64,000 nt of DNA from assembly GCA_030272585.1 (NCBI GenBank), contig BSYQ01000013.1, positions 1,302,001 through 1,366,000 on the forward strand, read 5' to 3'. This document shows, in pieces, positions 2,373-40,953 of this stretch. Source of the stretch: Bryopsis sp. KO-2023 (Eukaryota > Chlorophyta > Ulvophyceae > Bryopsidales > Bryopsidaceae). The position numbers were made by a program, and so were the translations under genes. The notes under the pieces are model-generated. The model was not told the DNA's origin, made no database searches, and saw only the letters and a program-made list of their open reading frames with translations. Every line of letters starts with the position of its first letter. The first letter of the stretch is position 1.

Positions 2373-2639
2373 GCAACGCCATTACGTTGTTGTACCGAAC
2401 GTCGTACTGTCTGTGTCGGTACAACAACGTCAGTGACACGTTGCAACAACGACCCGATGTTGGGTGCCGGTCGTTGGCGATAACGTATCGTACCGATCCA
2501 GTACCGATGTTGTACCGTACCGTAAAAAAAATTCGTACCGTACCGTACCGTAATGACCCATTACGGTACGGTGCGGTGCGTAACGTGTCGTACCGTACCG
2601 TAGGGGGTCGTTACGGTACTGCCCAGCTCTGCCCTGGCC

Positions 2640-3935
2640 ACCAAAACCACTTCAACAAATTGTGTTTCGTCTTTTTGACACCGAAGTGTCCCGAATACAC
2701 CGTTGAATGAAAATCTTTTATAATATCAAACCTGAGGCCATCAAAGTTTGGGACAACCACCCGCGTTCCATTCCACCAAAAGCCCGAGTCGAAACGACAC
2801 ATTGAAGCAGCGGATTCCAATGTATTGAACCACTCGTCTTTAGCGTACCCCTCAGATAATCGTCGCTGAAGATCGATATTAGGCAAAGGAGAGAGAGCTG
2901 GGCTCTCCTCACCAAGGTGACTGAGTCGGCCACGCTTGCTCACCGACTCCAACAAGACACTGATCTGCTGAGAATACCGTACAGGATAGCGCGACAAGGG
3001 GTCTGCTACATTCGTCCTGCCTGGCTGGTATTCCCACTTGAATCGGTATCCCTGAAGACACTCAAGCCACCGCACCGCTCTTCGAGACAACGTTACCTGG
3101 GAATGGAAAAATGTGTTGGGTTTGTGATCCACGATCACCTTAAACTCCATCACATCCAGATAGCACCTCCACAACTTCAAAGCATGGACAACAGCAAACA
3201 TTTCTTTGTCTGATATTGACCATCTCAATTGTGCACCATGTAGCATTTTGCTTTCAAATGCTATTGGTCGACCTTCTTGAAGTAATATTGCACCAATAGC
3301 CCAATCCGAGGCATCGGCAATAACTTCAAAAGGCTTACTGAAATCTGGCATTGCCAAGCAAGGTGCATGGGTCAGAGCTTCCTTAACTGCCACCATTGCT
3401 TTCCGACAATCCTCATTCCAGTCCCACTCCTTACTCTTCCTAAGTAAGTTCGTAAGTGGTCCGACCAATTTACTGTATCCTTGAATGAACCGACGGAAGT
3501 AATTTGAAAGACCTAAGAAGGATCTCAACTCAGATATATTTTGTGGCTCTGGCCAATCAATGACCTTCTGAGTCTTGCGAGTATCTACCGCAATCCCTTG
3601 TTTGCTTATCACGAAGCCAAGATAATGCAATGCATCCTTAAAGAAATCACACTTTGATCTCTTCAAGAAGAGCTTGTGCTCTCTCAAACGATCCATGACC
3701 TTTTTGAGATGCATGATGTGGTCTTTCTCATTCCTCGAATACACAAGTATATCATCAAGATAGATAAGGACGTACTTCCCTATCATCCCATGAAATACAC
3801 GGTTCATCCATGTTTGGAATATCGCTGGTGCATTCGTCAAACCCATCGGTAAGACACGATATTCAAACAATCCAAAGGGGGTCTTGAAAGCCGTTTTAGC
3901 CTGGTCCTCAGCTTTGACACGAAGCTGCCAGTAAT
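2640..3935 (-). pseudogene. Ty3/gypsy pol remnant: RT, RNase H, start of integrase
   Basis: Reading from 3935 downwards, the frame starts inside reverse transcriptase at YWQLRVKAED and carries the YLDD active site. It then runs through the connection region, RNase H (ADASDWAIGAIL, with its acidic residue, and a DHKPN motif) and the HH half of the integrase zinc domain (HSTVYSGHFG). It stops at the hAT-like insertion. Gag, protease and the first half of RT are missing at the 3935 end. The RT part is nearly identical to 5883-6435 on the other strand, with few differences (for example ISKQG versus ISKEG), so both copies are young or exchange sequence. Confidence 0.85.
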
Positions 3936-3998
3936 GTCTACAACGATCTTCGAAATCATGTCCTTGCAAAAGGAGTAACCCATGATGAGCGGATCCCT

Positions 3999-6467
3999 GT
4001 GATTAAGAATAAATCCGGGAATGTTCATGGTCGTGGGGAAGACTTGTATGGATACAAGACTTCAAAGAAAGCAAAGACTAGACCATCATTTACCAGTGGG
4101 CAAGCGAACCCGAACGCTAGTAAGAAAGCGAAGGGTACGGTTCGCGGCACAAAGCTTTCCCCGGAGGAGCGTGCTAGAAGGATAGCACAAAAGCTTTGCT
4201 TCACTTGTGGTGCTCCATGGGATGTGTCACACAAGTGTGGTGGGAAAGGCAAGGTGAGCGATTTGGCGATCAATGTCTTATCCCCTATCGAGAGTCATGT
4301 GCATATTGATGAGGTAGTGGAACCCTCAAATGCAATTATCGATGAGGAAATGAAAATTCATGCTTCTACTGACGAAAAGAAATTTTCGTGCAGAAATGAA
4401 AAGAAGGTGAATGATCAGATGAATCATGGTGTTCATCGCAAGATGATCAAGCGAGAACTTGAAAGACTCGAAGAGAGAACGGGACGGAAGTTTACGTTCG
4501 ATTCTTCTGGAGGTTGTTTTCCGGTTGATGCTTGTAAAAGATCTTGTGAAGACTTTCTTACGTGTGATGTGTCGGGCGAGCATGTGTGGCTCAACCCAGG
4601 AAAAGCACAAATGGATGCTTTCCTTAAGCACTATCTCGAGTGTAAGAAAAGAGCACCAATGACAACAAGTGCTTGTGTCTTGGTACCTCATAAGATGCGC
4701 AAAGCTTTTCGTGTGTTTGATAGCATGCGCTTGATAGCACAATATCGGGAAGGGGCATTCTTATTTGAGAGAGCTCGTAAGATACCATTTTCCCAACCAT
4801 TTGATGTGTATTATGATGCTCCTGTCCCTCGAATTGTGGAACCCACAATTGACAAGGAGATCATGACTATGTCTATGGTTTTCGAGGGACGTATCTTTGA
4901 TACTCCTACACATATATTGTTGGATTCGGGTGCGGCTGGTTCAGCCTATATTTCCCAACAATTTTGTGAGGCTTGTGGTATCTCATACCAAGCTCAAAGT
5001 GATACAACTGTTCAAATGGCTGATGGTACACCATTGACTTGTTCTGGTAAAACCACAGTTCCTCTTCGGATACAAGGTCTTCGTGAAAAGTTAGAGTGCT
5101 TGGTGATCAGTGCTCCTCACTTTGACCTTTATCTTGGAGATGTTTGGTTGAAGGACCATTGTGCTCATATGGATTTCCTTCATAACAGTTGTTCGTTGTT
5201 GTCAACTCGTGGACGTCGAGTTACGATCCATCATACTATTTCGGCTCGAAATCGTAGTGATCGTTGTGTTCATACGGTTACTCCATTTCTTTCCATTAAA
5301 CAAGTGAAACGATGTCTTCGTGATGATCGGATCACTCCATTCCTTGTCTTGGTGCGTGAGGTCACGCCACCTCTTGAGGGGGAGGAACATGGGTCTCCTA
5401 ATGCGTTGTTTCGTGAACGTGGATCACTAGAGGATGTGGTAAACTCCGCACACGGTGATCATGTTGAGAAAGAAACGTTGGAGAACATGTTGGCTCCTAT
5501 ATTGGACGAATACGAGGATCGGTTTGCGAATGAATTGGCCTCGTGTCCACCCTCTAGAGAGTTCGATGCTTCTATAGATCTGATACCAGGAGCAAATCCT
5601 GTGAGTCGTCCTATATTTCGCTATACGCCTGGAGAGCGTAAGGAAATTGAGGATCAGATATCGGATATGTTGGCTAAGGGACTTATTCAACCGTCGTGTA
5701 GTCCATGGGGAGCACCAGTCTTGTTTGTACCCAAACCAGATGGGACAAAAAGAATGTGTGTGGACTACAGGGGTTTGAATAAGTTAACAGTCAAAAATCA
5801 ATACCCTATCCCATGTATCGATGATCTGTTGGATCAGTTACAAGGTGCGAGGTACTTTTCCGCCCTTGATTTGAAAGCTGGTTACTGGCAGCTTCGTGTC
5901 AAAGCTGAGGACCAGGCTAAAACGGCTTTCAAGACGCCCTTTGGATTGTTTGAATATCGTGTCTTACCGATGGGTTTGACGAATGCACCAGCGATATTCC
6001 AAACATGGATGAACCGTGTATTTCATGGGATGATAGGGAAGTACGTCCTTATCTATCTTGATGATATACTTGTGTATTCGAGGAATGAGAAAGACCACAT
6101 CATGCATCTCAAAAAGGTTATGGATCGTTTGAGAGAGCATAAGCTCTACTTGAAGAGATCAAAGTGTGATTTCTTTAAGGATGCATTGCATTATCTTGGC
6201 TTCGTGATAAGCAAAGAAGGGATTGCGGTAGATACTCGCAAAACTCAGAAGGTCATTGATTGGCCAGAGCCACAAAATATATCTGAGTTGAGATCCTTCT
6301 TAGGTCTTTCAAATTACTTCCGTCGGTTCATTCAAGGATACAGTAAATTGGTCGGACCACTTACGAACTTACTTAGGAAGAGTAAGGAGTGGGACTGGAA
6401 TGAGGATTGTCGGAAAGCAATGGTGGCAGTTAAGGAAGCTCCGAAACCAAATGTTGTGCTTGCTTGA
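3999..6467 (+). pseudogene. Ty3/gypsy gag-protease-RT remnant
   Basis: An open frame of 822 codons. Near residues 67-80 is a zinc knuckle (CFTCGAPWDVSHKC). Around residue 304 is a retropepsin-like active site written LLDSGA. RT follows, with FVPKPDGTKRMCVDYRGLN, LDLKAGYWQLRV, LPMGLTNAPAIFQ and YLDD near residue 685. Homology to the family stops after VAVKEA at about 6436; RNase H and integrase are absent, and the last residues are read from unrelated DNA. The 5' side abuts the inverted first fragment at 3936-3998, so no LTR is visible. I see no long terminal repeats or primer-binding site, hence a truncated element despite the intact frame. Confidence 0.85.
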
Positions 6468-9319: not shown

Positions 9320-12300
9320 ATGGCGCGCTGGCAGGATTGGTTGGTTACCGTGTGCCTTTTGCTTATCGGGCGAGCCATCTGTGACGACGGGGTAACCTTG
9401 GAAAGCTTCAAGAAAGAGAAGTCTGCCCATTCCGAGAGGTTCGCCAAAGATGCTGCTCGCCACGTGATCAACAAAGCCAGCTCGAGGGGCTTCGAGTGCG
9501 AGTGTGCGCATCACGAGTGCGGTGACGAGTTCGATATCGACAGCGAGTGCGTGGACATAGGGGAGTCGACGGAAAACCATACTTGCGACGTGCGGGATGG
9601 ATGCGCGTCAGTGAAGGTGATCCAAGCCGTATCTATGGTTTCTTTTTTGTGATCTCCCTTCTTTTTACCCAAAGAATACTGCAGCACCTCGGTTTGATAT
9701 TTCTTGGCCGCCATGAGCGCTGGCGTAACGCTCAGCTGTTGCTCAGTCGCTTGCTGAAGGATCGGGTGCAGCACGCGCGATAACGTACGTAACCTAATCA
9801 CGTAATACATGCGTTCCTCTGACAGATTCGGCCTTTGGATCGTTTTCCAGAAATCGATCATTTTCTATCGATTCATTCCCAAGAAAACCAACCATGGAAA
9901 TACACTGGGAAATTCCCTAGTTTCAACAGAAACTCCTGATACACAGGCCTGTGTTGTGTAATACTTTTTGCTTCCTTCAAAGAAAACCTTTGAACAGAGT
10001 CGATCATCAGCATGACACCCCTCAATGTTTGTGAATTTGAATAAACTTTTTGATTTTGCTGCCCCATGAATCTCAAAATACATTTCATTTGAGAAATAAG
10101 AGCACCCTTCAAGCTGCAGATTGCGGTAATTCTTCTTTTTTTTTGGGGGGGGGGGTTCAGTTGCATTTGGAGCACAGTTTTTTGATGTCGACACCAGAAC
10201 AAAAACTTGACTTTTCAACCAAAGACGACATGGAACAGGCGCTCGTCAATGAAATTTGCCTTTTCAAGGTGAGGTTGTTTCGGGGGGTAAAGATTAACTT
10301 TCATAAAAAATTGATACAAGAAAAAGTCTTCTTGTTCTACTTAATAAAATAAAATAAACAGTTTCTGGCATAGCCACTTTGTATTGCAATACAAGCAATT
10401 GCTGGTCGATAACTGATATGCGGAGAGCAGGATTGTGAAATATATGTCTGTTGGTTTGAAATTTGTGCATGTATGCATCAGTCACTGGACCAGACGCGTA
10501 TTTTTATGGAGGCAAGCGAATTCGAGAAAAAGGGCTTCAATGGATGGAGTTACATTGGAACGCCATCTGGGATGTTGATGTGAGGTGGTTGGGGGGCTAG
10601 TAGAAATTCATTTCCCTGTCTTTCTGTTTTTAGTTTCATTTGTTTTCATTTTGTTTATTGGGGGGGGGGGGGGGGGGAATCATTTCATTTCATTGATTGT
10701 CACGAGGGACCGTGTGTTATGCGGCGCGCACCCTGGATCCATTCAAGATATGAAGCATTGTTTTTGAAATCTGCAGGACCTTCCCTGGACGAGCGAGGAA
10801 TAGGTTCGGCAGTGACACTCACGGCGCCACGTGCGAGCCGTACGATGCCGTGAGTACCAGGCCTGACCCCAGGCCAGTCTTTTTTTTTGGGGGGGGGGGG
10901 GGGGGATACTTTGAACCCCCATGTCCATCACCATCAAAACTCCCAGGTTTCTAGCTGCTGTTCGCTGTCAGAACACATTCCTCGCTCGTGGTGTGAGCTT
11001 CAAAATGAAAGTCGTATCAACAAGCACAAGCAGAAAGAGGTCGCGTCACGATAAGTCGTGGTTCCTCTGGAGGCTAAAGAAAAGAAAAATGTCCAAGCTC
11101 TGGGTGTGTGTGTGTGCTTTTGTGGGTCGTATTTCCCAGCAGAAATACTTGCTAACAACTTTCTTTTTGATCGATATCCGCGCAGACTCTGCGGCCTTGG
11201 TTCGGTCCGGCGATGAGCGCGAGGAAGGCGGTCGTGATATTGGCCCACTCCTCAGGTGCATGCATACATATGTATCCTTCCATCTGTTGATGAATTTGTA
11301 GTTATTGTTGGGAGCTGCGTGTGCATCGATGGCGGCGCACGAGGAAAGATATGACCTTCCTCTCGCCGCCTTTCTGGTGTTGCTGGCACTGACACGTTTT
11401 CAACAAGCGCTTTGCTTTCCCTGTAGCGACGGACCAGGCGAAGAAGATCGTGGCCAAAGTGTTGACGACTTTAACGTACTCCGACTACGTGAGTGTTTTG
11501 GTGTGCGACTCCGGACCCGAGCACAGCATCGTTCACTGCGTTGATGGCGTCGAGGAGAGTGGCAAGAGGAGATGTCTGGAACGTGGAACGCAGGAAAACG
11601 TCAGGAAAATGAAAGACCTGCTGGACGAGGGGAGCGTCGCGAGTTTGGTGCCCGCGTTCCATCACGCTTTCGATCTCCTGGAAAGCGTCGCAAGCGAGGG
11701 TGTCGACAAGGTGAAAACAAAACCCCCCTACTCCCCCATGTTGAAGGAGAACTGGTACACACGCTCCTTTCATGTTCGGTTGGCTAATAGGAAACTCGCC
11801 CCCACCCCAAAGTTGCATGAACATCTCTAGGCAGCCTCACTTTGCTTTTCCATGCAGATGATATTGTTCATGGCCGGCGACACGTTTTCTCCTGAGACCA
11901 CGGAAGACGTCCTTCAAGCGGTGGGGGGTCGGCAAAAGCCCAACGATAAGGTTAATGTTCTGGGGTACAGCTTCAACTCCGACGACGGATTGGCCCGCCA
12001 GCTGGCGTGCGAAAACCACGGTGTCTCGATGAACATCGACGCCTCGGCGGACATGACTCCTTACTTCTCGTTCATCTCGTTGGCTCCTGAACACGCGGAG
12101 AAGGATCCTTCCTACGTTCATTTCACGCCTTCTTACGTCGATGCGGGTGGGTGGAAAGCGATTGCCATGCACTGATACAGTGATTTTTTATGTGTTGAAG
12201 CTGGGGTTCTGTCGTCTGTACACACACAATCTGATGATTACCACCAAAACTGGGCTTCTCCATCTAAGCGATCCTCCAGATCCTGTTGATCAATAGGATT

Positions 12301-15204
12301 CACCTTATCCACACCAAGAACACCAAAGAAATGATATCCCAAAACTGCAAGGCGTTATTTGATGCCATAACCTGGGTGGTTTTGATTGCTGTTGATTCGT
12401 AGGCCATCTTGGGCTGGTGATCACCACATCCATGGCCATGTATGAAGAGTTTGATTGCAACAGTTCATGGATGGGTCAAAAGAGGAGGTTTTTGGGGGTG
12501 GCGGGAATCGACAAGCAGGTGCAAGTGCTGGAGAAGGCTGGGCTCAAGGATGACTACGAAAAAGATTTAGGCAACATTGAGAGGTCGCTCAGCATTTGGG
12601 ATGTGAAGGGGCTGGACTGTCAGTTGCAGGTGAACTGTGTTTGTGTGTGTGACAGAAGAGGTAATGGGGGGAGGGGAGGGGATGTTAGGAGTCGTCCTAT
12701 TTTGATGGTAAAATGATAAGACAAACTCTTGTGCGTTGGAAAGAATGGTTTAGAAACAAAAAATAAAAATGCGATAAGGTTTGCTCAATCTTGAAAAAAA
12801 TTAAAAATTAAGGTGCCCATGTTTTTTTTTGTTTTTTTTTTTTTCAGATTCTTCGCAAAAGAATGGGTTCGGAATGTGCCGTGAAGATGGATCACTCGCA
12901 GAAATGCTTGCAGATGGGCAAGGATCAATACTATTTCATCCCACCAGAGAAATGGGCAACTTTCGAGGCCGCTCAGGAAAAATGTGCCAAAATCGGGGGA
13001 CGTATTGTCAATCTGGATTCTGCGCAAGAAAGGGCTCTTCTTGCGAGTGTGGTGCCAAGGTCGGGTGTATGGGTTCAACTGGAAAGAGATGATGCTGTGG
13101 GGGGGATTGGGGGGGATAATTCCTGGGCGAATGGAGGTCATGGGAAAGGGGAGTGTGCAAAGATTGACCCCAGGGGTAGGACCAACAATGTCGTTCTGCA
13201 GGATTGTGATATGACACTTCCTTACATGTGCGAGTTCGATCGGCGACCGAAAGAGTGTAAGGTAATGGTATTTATCTGCATTTTCTTTTTCCCAGCATAT
13301 GTTTTTCTTTATTTTTTTCCAGCAGGTATGGGGCTGGAATACAGAAAAGAGTGGCTGAGGGCTGTACTGTGCATTGCCAGTATTGAGAAAGATATGTTGG
13401 AGCAGACGCCAATAAGGAATTGCTTATTCTGCATCAGGACTCAGTTTTAGACCTCATTGCAGCAGCCGGCGATCTGGATGATGCGGAAAAGTGTGAGAAA
13501 AAGAATGAGTGCAAGGCCCCCGCTCCTGCCCAGATAAAAGCTCCCCAGGGTGGACCCCTCTGCAATTGGCCCCCTTACAGCAGCAACTACACCATCGAGA
13601 ATGAGAAGGGAAGAGTGTGTTGTTCTGCCGAGGAATATGACAAGGCATGTCCGCTGAGAAACGATGCAGCCCTCCAAGTAAGTACAAACCTTGCATCTTC
13701 AACACACACATAAATGCGCTTTCTTTTTTCTTTTCTGCTTCTGTTTCAATTTTTCCCTAAGGCTTTTCCGTGGTGTGGATGTTCAGGAACCTATCATTCT
13801 TGTCTTTGGGGCTGCCTTCGTTTTGCTGTTGATTCTGCTCATCGGCGGCCTCTTTGTGATACGCCGATGGATAGCTCGCCCCCCCCAGCCCATTCCTATC
13901 GCCTCCAACATTCTAAAGATGGGGGAGAGACTGGGGGGCGGCTATTCAGGGGAGGTCTATCGGGCTACCTGGATGGAGGAGCGGGTTGCTGTGAAAATAT
14001 TTCATTACCCTGAGCGACAAGATGCCAAAAGCGAACTGGTCATTTTCAGAACGTTGCCTCAACACCCAAATATCATTCGGTGAGGACCATTATCATATAA
14101 GTACATGGATACAGCCGCAAGGAATTTGAAAGAATGATGCCCTCCCTCCCCCCCCAAAAAAAAGAAAAAGAAAAAAATAATTATAATAATTAAAAATAAA
14201 ATAAAATGAACAAATAAATAAATAATTAAAAATTAAATTTTATTGTAGAAAGATGGCCGTGCAGACATGAAGCAGCAGGTGTAGGTTTCAGTTCTTGATA
14301 CTGACCACTGAGGGGCCCCCGACTTCAATTTCGTGTTAAAAGTGCTTTTTTTTTGTTCTTGTTGGATGATCGCATGTTCAGTTGTATTGGGATTCGAGAT
14401 GGAAACGAGGAAGGCACCGTGGCCTTGATTTTGGAGCTCATGGAAATGAACCTGGAAGATTTCATTTCTGGCCCCGCTCGGCACAGGGGCATCAGCTACA
14501 GGGAACTTTTCCAAGTGTTTTTCGACGTGGCCTGCGGACTGGATCACCTCCACCATCACAACTTCCTGCATCTCGATCTGAAGCCGCGCAACGTCTTGAT
14601 CAGTTTGGAGGGTGCCGAAGATAGCCCAACCGTGAAACTGTGCGATTTCGGGCTGAGCATCGAGTGCATGACCAACTCGATCAATCTGGCGGGGACGAGG
14701 GGTACTCCAGGGTACATAGCGCCAGAAACCCAGCGAGTTTCGCTCAATTCTGTTGTTAAAGCGACGAGGAAAGCCGACATCTTCTCGCTGGGCATGATCA
14801 TGCGCGCATGTCTGATTTCGGAGCCCGATGCGAGCTCGGAGTTGCGAGGCTCACGAGAAACTCTGGACGGAATAATGCCGTTGGTCGAATCGTGCACTCG
14901 GTGGGACCCGACGCAGCGACCCAGCGCTCGGGAGGTTTGCACCGCACTGAATAATCTGATGAAGAAGGATTGGGCGAATCGTGGCGTGTTTGGCGGGCCA
15001 TCTGTTGAGGACAGCGAAAGCGGCGATACCGCAGACAACTCCGAGGTGCACGTGAGGACTCTGTTTTCTAACCCCCCACCCCAGATGTGGTTGGGAAGCA
15101 GCGAACCCTCCGTGGCTGACCCAGACACCATCTACATCGATGCTGACAGCCACTCTTTGAAGGAAATAAATGCAGCCAACCTCTCTTTTGCGGATGAAAA
15201 GTAG
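9320..15204 (+). CDS. Receptor kinase: VWA/Cache + C-type lectin + TM + kinase
   Basis: Exons 9320-9616, 10161-10268, 10482-10579, 10777-10849, 11186-11255, 11427-11710, 11858-12146, 12403-12629, 12848-13256, 13406-13677, 13787-14079 and 14382-15204 join in phase to 1080 residues; the 13256/13406 junction is the least certain. Residues 1-22 are a signal peptide. Residues 100-480 resemble the VWA-Cache ectodomain of calcium-channel alpha2-delta subunits and Cache receptors (YDATLRPWF, then a VWA-like [10 protein letters not shown] and [14 protein letters not shown] strand). Residues 483-619 are a C-type lectin domain ([18 protein letters not shown], ending in LPYMCEF). A membrane segment spans about 711-735. 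The kinase follows: glycine loop LGGGYSGEV (758-766), VAVK lysine 779, HLDLKPRN 870-877, DFG 895-897, APE 920-922. It probably senses an extracellular ligand. The catalytic loop lacks the usual Arg before Asp. The family is named only by domains. Confidence 0.85.
10136..10155 (+). repeat. T-run/G-run junction before an acceptor
   Basis: T9 followed by G11, then TTCAG, the acceptor of exon 2 of the receptor kinase. It is one of at least a dozen such tracts in the window with the same T-to-G polarity (or C-to-A on the other strand). See the separate finding. Confidence 0.7.
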
Positions 15205-15937: not shown

Positions 15938-16690
15938 TCCCCTGTGTGCGGGGTCATTTTGACACCCCGCACATGAACTACACTGCCCCGCACAAAGCCA
16001 CAACCACCCCGCACGGCTCTGTGCGAAGTTTTGAGCCGATTACTGCGGGGTACAGTGAACCTCGCACAGAGGTTGACGTCTTTGTCGCCACCCTACCCCG
16101 CACAGGGGAATATAAACCCCGCACAGTGTGCGGGGTTCCAGCGTGTATGTGCGAGGTGCCTGTGCGGGGCTGAGTCGCAGATCCTGTGCGGGGTAGGGTG
16201 GCGACAAAGACGTCAACCTCTGTGCGAGGTTCACTGTACCCCGCAGTAATCGGCTCAAAACTTCGCACAGAGCCGTGCGGGGTGGTTGTGGCTTTGTGCG
16301 GGGTCCCTCGCACCTCGCAGTAACCGGGTCATAACATCGCACAGCGCTGTGCGGGTTTGGTTTGGCTTTGTGCGAGGTCTCTCAGACCTCGCAGTAATCG
16401 GGTCATAACATCGCACAGAGCCGTGCGGGGTTGGTGTGGTGGATGTGTGCGGGTTTGGTTTGGCTTTGTGCGGGGTCCCTCGCACCTCGCAGTAACCGGG
16501 TCATAACATCGCACAGCGCTGTGCGGGGTTGGTGAGGCTTTGTGCGGGGTCTCCCATACCTCGCAGTAATCGGGTCATAACATCGCACAGAGCCGTGCGG
16601 GGTTGGTGAGGCTGTGTGCGGGGTTGTTAGTTGATGAGCAGTGCGGCGTTATTTCCGGTTTGTGCGGGGCAGATCGGTGCATGTGCGGTG
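15938..16690. repeat. TGTGCGGGG repeat array with palindrome and tandem units
   Basis: The decamer TGTGCGGGGT and its complement occur dozens of times. From about 15983 to 16303 the array is a large palindrome (arms about 115 bp, shared blocks include GACGTCTTTGTCGCCACCC). From about 16303 to 16620 a unit of about 74 bp is repeated in tandem roughly four times (CGCAGTAACCGGGTCATAAC, CATCGCACAGCGCTGTGCGG). The same decamers recur at 19630-19895, the other end of the presumed transposon. Open frames across it are a by-product of the repeats. Confidence 0.8.
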
Positions 16691-39235: not shown

Positions 39236-40953
39236 ATGCGCGGGTCGGTTGTGTTCATTCTTGCGGCAGTTTTTCTCTCGGCATGTGGTGAGCTTTCTTT
39301 CGTCGCAACGCTCGGCGCTTTTGAGCTGTAGATGTGCTTGCTCAACCGATCGAGGACCGACTTCCTTGATCTGGACTGCTGGAGAGACGATCGAGTAGTT
39401 GGTCCCTTGAAAACCAGTCTGGCGGCGCATTTTCTGCGTTCTCTATTCCTGGATCAAGTTTTTTTTTGGGGGGGGGGGGGATTTTCAAGTTTTTTGTGGC
39501 TGTTGCATGTGGGGATCTGGAGTCCCGCATTGAGCGGGATATTTCCGGTGTTGGTTTTGATTGTGTGTTTACCGCTCCTCGTGTAGTTGCTGGCGTCACC
39601 GGGTTTTCTGAGGAGGCCCTCCAAAAGGTGGTCGTTTCGTCAGGTAAGGCGGTTTGGGTTCCTCCTAACCTTCATGGTTGTACAGACCGCTGAGGTCCAT
39701 GTGGCTTGGGTTTGAACGAGTGAAGGAATCGACTGGGGCATATTGACTCGAGGCAGTGCTATGTTTTTCATCGATCGTTTGGTTTCCAGCTGGGTGGTGA
39801 CATGCGCGTCCGATTCAGACAAGAAAAGTGCATTACAGGTTGAATTTATTTTGCAGGAGTCTCCAAGGGCCAGCAGAAATGGGGTGGTGTCCTCCCAGCC
39901 AAGAACGAGGATGACGACGATTCCGATGGTGGCGATGATGATGATGATACCCGCAGGCCCGTCTTCTTGAAGGGCGTCTCCATGAAAAATGAGGATGATG
40001 ATTCTGATGATGGGGATGATGATGACACCAAAAATCTTCTCTTTGAGAATGGCACCCCTGTCGACAACGAGGATGATGATTCTGATGATGATGATACCCG
40101 CAGGCCCGTTTTCTCAAATGGCCTCCCCATGAAAAATGAAGATGATGATTCTGATGATGGGGATGATGATGACACCAAAAATCTTCTCTTTGAGAATGGC
40201 ACCCCTGTCGACAACGAGGATGATGATTCTGATGATGATGATACCCGCAGGCCCGTGTTCTCAAATGGCCTCCCCATGAAAAATGAAGATGATGATTCTG
40301 ATGATGGGGATGATGATGACACCAAAAGTCTTCTCTTTGAGAATGGCACCCCTGTCGACAACGAGGATGATGATTCTGATGATGATGATACCCGCAGGCC
40401 CGTTTTCTCAAATGGCCTCCCCATGAAAAATGAAGATGATGATTCTGATGATGGGGATGATGATGACACCAAAAGTCTTCTCTTTGGGAATGGCACCCCT
40501 GTTGAAAACGAGGATGATGATTCCGATGATGGAGACGATGATGATACACGCAGGCCCGTGTTCTGGAAGGGCGCCTCCATGAAAAATGAGGATGATGATT
40601 CTGATGATGGGGACGATGATGATACCCGCAGGCCTGTCTTCTCAAATGGCCTCCCAATGAAAAACGAGGATGATGATTCCGATGATGGGGATGACGATGA
40701 CACCAAAAATCTTCTCTTTGAGAATGCCACCCCTGTCGACAACAGGGATGATGATTCTGATGATGATGATACCCGGAGGCCGGTGTTCTCAAACGGGCTC
40801 CCCATGAAAAATGAGGATGATGATTCTGATGATGGGGATGATGATGACACCAGAAAGCCTTTCTATGAGAATGCCACCCCTGTCGAAAACGAGGATGATG
40901 ATTCTGATGATGATACTCTCGTTTCCAGGAGGTTTGGTCCTGCAGAGCCATGA
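39236..40953 (+). CDS. Secreted Asp-rich tandem-repeat protein
   Basis: Exons 39236-39287, 39587-39643 and 39857-40953 join in phase to 401 residues. Residues 1-20 are a clear signal peptide (MRGSVVFILAAVFLSAC). After a short linker (FSEEALQKVVVSSGVSKGQQ) the rest is about 14 units: an acidic core (NEDDDSDDGDDDDT) followed by a 12-15-residue spacer that alternates between a basic form (RRPVFSNGLPMK) and an acidic form (KNLLFENGTPVD). The protein ends SRRFGPAEP. Such a chain would be highly phosphorylated or bind calcium; proteins of this kind occur in mineralised or gelled matrices. The repeating dibasic RR could also be cleaved as in peptide precursors. Both uses are speculation. I do not recognise a named family. 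DNA units are nearly identical, so copy number probably varies. Confidence 0.8.

Follow-up and report, generated by a model that had tools for sequence, protein, structure and literature searches.

The alpha2delta proteins bind amino acids and gabapentin, and the signal that such binding gives in the body is still debated. Bacterial amino-acid receptors of the PctA type are not known to have a VWA insert or a C-type-lectin-like domain (CTLD) and are coupled to bacterial signalling parts. Most plant lectin receptor kinases use other lectin folds than the C-type, and to our knowledge none carries a VWA/Cache region. The alpha2delta proteins are described as having a GPI anchor and two dCache_1 domains; for dCache_1, the amino-acid motif consists of Y and R-x-W-Y in the first half and of Y...D in the second, it is split by the VWA insert in alpha2delta-1, and Arg241 and Asp491 of this protein are important for gabapentin action (PMC9901441).

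We analysed a window of 64,000 nucleotides from Bryopsis sp. KO-2023 (positions 1302001-1366000 of contig C13, in a genome of 91.1 Mb in 28 contigs), which holds a gene combining a VWA/Cache ectodomain, a CTLD and a kinase (Table 1). In the spliced model its 12 exons have GT-AG borders and join in phase with zero internal stops. The preliminary description had also joined twelve exons in phase, which stands, but its length of 1080 residues does not: our first model, close to it, had 1082 residues, and correcting the borders of exons 1 and 10 gave 1071. We ended exon 1 at 9616 (AAG|GTGATC) because this donor is common to all three paralogues described below, while the donor at 9628 used in the first model is missing in paralogue A and was dropped. 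Exon 10 starts at 13438 (ATCAG|GACTCAG), where an acceptor is also present in each of the two paralogues. Among the other acceptors considered, 13392 was rejected since it breaks the frame, and 13403, 13406 and 13417 were dropped since paralogues A and B both put the acceptor at 13438. The protein has one strong hydrophobic segment (703-721) and a weaker N-terminal one (9-27), in agreement with the membrane segment and signal peptide proposed earlier.

Table 1. Position of the receptor kinase gene and its exons in the window.
Feature	Position	Strand	Content and evidence
Whole gene, from start to stop codon	9320..15204	+	12 exons, 1071 residues; spliced model, with exons and phases shared by two paralogues
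Exon 1	9320..9616	+	Predicted signal peptide, Cys-rich N-terminus; hydrophobic stretch at residues 9-27
Exon 2	10161..10268	+	VWA/Cache ectodomain begins
Exon 3	10482..10579	+	First Cache half: GWSYIG, W157
Exon 4	10777..10849	+	First Cache half; putative pocket residue Y190
Exon 5	11186..11255	+	Putative pocket residues R195, W197, F198; VWA begins, metal site degenerate
Exon 6	11427..11710	+	VWA
Exon 7	11858..12146	+	VWA end, second Cache half; putative pocket residues Y403, D405
Exon 8	12403..12629	+	Second Cache half; putative pocket residue D443
Exon 9	12848..13261	+	CTLD; Lectin_C E 5.4e-7
Exon 10	13438..13677	+	Cys-rich stalk; acceptor corrected, both paralogues at the same place
Exon 11	13787..14079	+	Predicted membrane span (703-721), kinase N-lobe, K770, E783
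Exon 12	14382..15204	+	Kinase C-lobe (D863, N868, D886), cytoplasmic tail

By searching the genome with three parts of the window protein, we found two further genes on this contig in which the VWA/Cache region, the CTLD and the kinase follow one another as in the window gene. These paralogues are A (L010), with 1066 residues, and B (L042 plus L011), with 1121. The three genes share all 12 exons, GT-AG borders and identical phases, and are free of internal stops. Paralogue A is 76% identical to the window gene (1043 aligned codons) and B 60% (1058 aligned codons); the identity between the window gene and B falls to 47% in exons 9 and 10 and reaches 72% in the kinase. Overall dN/dS was 0.27 (window-A), 0.28 (window-B) and 0.28 (A-B). 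By region, values in the trio were 0.22-0.24 in the VWA/Cache part, 0.18-0.24 in the kinase and a looser 0.39-0.78 in the C-terminal tail; single exons vary more, up to 0.69 (exon 8, A-B), with dS saturated in some short exons. The three kinase genes are under purifying selection. We regard the locus as one functional gene mainly because the exon structure is shared and the sequence constrained in the three paralogues. The interval 13256-13787, which had been named as a possible break between two transcripts, is bridged by splice sites that match in the three genes. At the level of sequence, the observation of a single gene with a predicted signal peptide, a VWA set into dCache, a CTLD, one span and a TKL-like kinase is confirmed.

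Within intron 9 (window 13262-13450), the CTLD frame is open and would add a hydrophobic stretch before the stop at 13448-13450. Poly-T introns give such a stretch by chance, and a kinase-free membrane isoform is conceivable. Regarding the surroundings of the gene, minisatellite-like repeats (CCGCACA and its complement) lie just downstream, at about 15940-16600. At 2611-6467 there are two opposed long frames with common reverse-transcriptase-like sequence, as in Ty3-type retroelements (judged by eye), and at 39844-40953 an open frame of aspartate-rich repeats of about 30 residues (NEDDDSDDGDDDDT...). Light-harvesting genes gave 107 matches in the genome. Of two light-harvesting proteins compared with solved structures, one was identical at 160 of 165 residues to chain 7 of 6igz, the photosystem I of Bryopsis corticulans, which makes Bryopsis or a close relative the probable host rather than a chlorarachniophyte or cryptophyte; the other protein matched 9vfj best, and less closely.

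The outer part of the protein had been described as alpha2-delta-like, and this was borne out. In the first, 1082-residue model, the window protein alone matched alpha2delta-1 with an E-value of 5.6e-7 and CACHD1 with 0.0011, while neither VWA nor Cache was detected by Pfam, even with E-values of up to 1 allowed. A profile of 11 family members, namely the three kinase genes and eight of the ten kinase-free relatives presented below (L040 and L041 were left out because introns split their ectodomains), matched alpha2delta-1 at 2.9e-41 and CACHD1 at 6.2e-22. The homology with alpha2delta-1 spans the VWA and the split first dCache (positions 35-391 of the profile), and the VWA part of the profile also gave weaker matches to inter-alpha-trypsin inhibitor heavy chains and other VWA proteins. 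These comparisons show the predicted outer part to be a VWA-in-dCache module as in alpha2delta and CACHD1. A second dCache_1 domain was not seen in the window protein, where the first runs into the CTLD, the stalk, the span and the kinase.

The residues of the amino-acid motif are kept in this module. In the family alignment, the columns of alpha2delta-1 R241, W243, D452 and D491 are invariant in all 11 aligned sequences, and those of Y236, Y244 and Y450 hold Y or F. The window protein carries the dCache_1 motif as Y190, R195, W197, F198, Y403, D405 and D443, identical to alpha2delta-1 at six of the seven positions and with Y replaced by F at the seventh, against 71 of 276 positions overall; the binomial P for this difference is about 0.0016, a value to be taken as a guide only, because residues of one fold do not vary independently and some may be kept for folding. 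The RPW may be kept for folding alone. In paralogue B, the first Y of the motif is F. By our own pairing of positions, F198 would correspond to Y129 of PctA, which is described as making no contact with the ligand (PMC10104139). The divergent relative L040 has no clear Y-x-D in the second half (judged by eye), and thus the pocket is not kept in the whole family.

The metal site of VWA domains follows the pattern DxSxS...T...D. It is intact in seven of the eight aligned kinase-free relatives and degenerate in all three kinase genes: the window gene and A retain a single S, whereas B still has the first D together with one S. With the motif kept and the metal site degenerate, the kinase branch has retained the site for a small ligand but little of that for the metal. 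The preliminary description had the Cache region reading a small ligand; the kept pocket residues are in line with this, the ligand probably being amino-acid-like, and suggest that the window protein may be a new kind of amino-acid receptor.

The C-type lectin domain noticed earlier is present, with Lectin_C at 5.4e-7 and 30.7 bits (Pfam cut-off, 22.6; first, 1082-residue model), but the reading of a glycan proposed for it found no support. C-type lectins that bind sugars in a calcium-dependent manner carry EPN or QPD and WND motifs; EPN, QPD and WND are absent from the CTLDs of all three kinase genes, and glycan reading is therefore not supported. Matches to solved C-type lectins were weak (best, 8.1e-6), and the fold of the CTLD exon predicted from one sequence was poor (mean pLDDT 44). 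This domain is probably a protein-binding or structural module and not a classical sugar reader.

As also proposed before, a kinase lies on the same product. Pkinase matched with an E-value of 1.5e-36 (first, 1082-residue model), and the residues of an active kinase are in place: K770, E783 of alpha-C, the catalytic D863, N868 and D886 of DFG. The HRD motif reads HLD throughout the trio, and the P of APE is missing from both paralogues. The nearest solved kinases were CTR1 (Raf-like, the best, at 2e-17), IRE1, TGF-beta receptor 1 and LysM receptor kinases, and the kinase is predicted to be TKL-like. Elsewhere in the genome, L020 (C1, about 11109871) is an open frame of 710 residues in which an unrelated ectodomain and a hydrophobic segment accompany a similar kinase (judged by eye), the latter 42% identical to that of the window gene; L020 is another predicted receptor kinase.

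Using a single-exon relative as the query, we obtained 13 matches in the genome, which correspond to ten further VWA/Cache genes: four on C6, three on C5 and one each on C8, C7 and C1. The family thus has at least 13 genes, including the three on C13. Pfam placed two of three kinase-free VWA/Cache frames above the VWA cut-offs and the third just below; a search of the genome with the VWA_N family gave no match, and neither did its controls. All ten further genes have CTLD-like sequence downstream, found by search in seven, by tblastn in L014, by Pfam in L037 and by eye in L035. No kinase match among the 87 listed, out of at least that many in the genome, lies within 80 kb of these ten genes. 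When the kinase was compared with the ten loci (5.5 kb for L039 and 10 kb for the other nine) by tblastn at permissive settings, a single match of 19 residues appeared, at E 7.7. We judged the C-terminal ends of six of the ten by eye: L036, L037, L039 and L041 have a hydrophobic stretch right before the stop, resembling a GPI signal, and L038 and L040 have a hydrophobic segment followed by a short end. Since no kinase was detected in the ten relatives, the kinase genes appear to form one branch of a family of alpha2delta-like surface proteins, in which case the kinase would have been gained in this branch rather than lost in the relatives.

A scan of prokaryote genomes gave, among the matches listed, one family relative, L052, in a Hodarchaeota MAG (JAUUVJ010000055.1; E 7e-12). 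Pfam detected VWA in L052:2348-4851 at 3.3e-17 and dCache_1 at 2.6e-9, the latter below the cut-off. A second dCache_1 gene adjoins the VWA-plus-dCache gene, and the VWA/dCache frame is broken by a stop in its N-terminal half. Like the window gene, L052 has VWA and dCache in one region; unlike in the window gene, a CTLD and a kinase were not seen in the 6.2 kb examined. This relative hints that the VWA-in-dCache design may predate eukaryotes.

Taken on its sequence, we lean towards reading the window protein as a single-pass receptor kinase with a dCache pocket for an amino-acid-like ligand, a CTLD with a Cys-rich stalk and a TKL-like kinase. An extracellular amino acid or amino-acid-like molecule would be held in the dCache pocket via R195 and D443, the change in the ectodomain would pass through the Cys-rich stalk to the single span (with coupling from span to kinase assumed), and the TKL-like kinase would then act on cytoplasmic targets. 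For this receptor kinase, the ligand class, the activation, the expression and the targets are what we infer. We propose more tentatively that an amino-acid sensor of the gabapentin-receptor type may have been joined directly to a cytoplasmic kinase. In this view, a surface protein similar to alpha2delta and ending in a hydrophobic tail gained the kinase and so became an amino-acid receptor kinase of the green lineage. If true, an alpha2delta relative with a kinase of its own would allow the filling of the pocket to be read out directly, and would reveal a way for a chlorophyte to detect free amino acids outside the cell.

One could argue that the protein is rather an adhesion or recognition receptor for contact with gametes, wounds or microbes, with VWA and CTLD binding proteins, the Cache part serving only as a scaffold and the kinase reporting the contact. 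Both VWA and CTLD occur widely as recognition modules, the family has expanded to 13 genes, and between the window gene and B the kinase has changed more slowly than the CTLD and stalk; however, the kinase genes retain the pocket for a small ligand but have mostly lost the VWA metal site that such binding usually needs, and we consider this explanation unlikely. An auxiliary calcium-channel subunit of the alpha2delta kind that bears a kinase would agree with the homology to alpha2delta-1 over the VWA and first dCache, and several kinase-free relatives do combine an intact metal site with a hydrophobic tail. Nevertheless, the second dCache region was not seen in the window protein, and alpha2delta-1 and -2 no longer enhance channels once the metal site, which is degenerate in the window gene, is disrupted (PMC9901441), making such a role improbable. 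Two genes, or a kinase-free isoform whose ectodomain ends shortly after exon 9 with the kinase separate, would fit the open frame through intron 9 and the ten relatives without a detected kinase, but we give this very little credence given that splice positions and phases match over exons 9, 10 and 11 in all three paralogues and that the read-through stops early in B.

Among the matches listed in a search of open-access PMC titles and abstract starts, none described a VWA/Cache/CTLD kinase. We provisionally consider the gene an undescribed, new combination of known modules. Lectin receptor-like kinases from chlorophytes were not retrieved in a 2019 survey (PMC6362431), and the window gene would give this group a receptor kinase that bears a lectin-like domain. 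In common with plant lectin receptor kinases, it has a lectin-type ectodomain, one span and a cytoplasmic kinase. With the bacterial dCache_1 amino-acid receptors of the PctA type, it shares the putative pocket motif (PMC10104139, PMC9901441). Finally, by comparing it with alpha2delta-1 and CACHD1, we find the same VWA set into dCache and the residues of the amino-acid motif kept, whereas the window gene differs from both in its CTLD, its TKL-like kinase, its single dCache and its degenerate VWA metal site.
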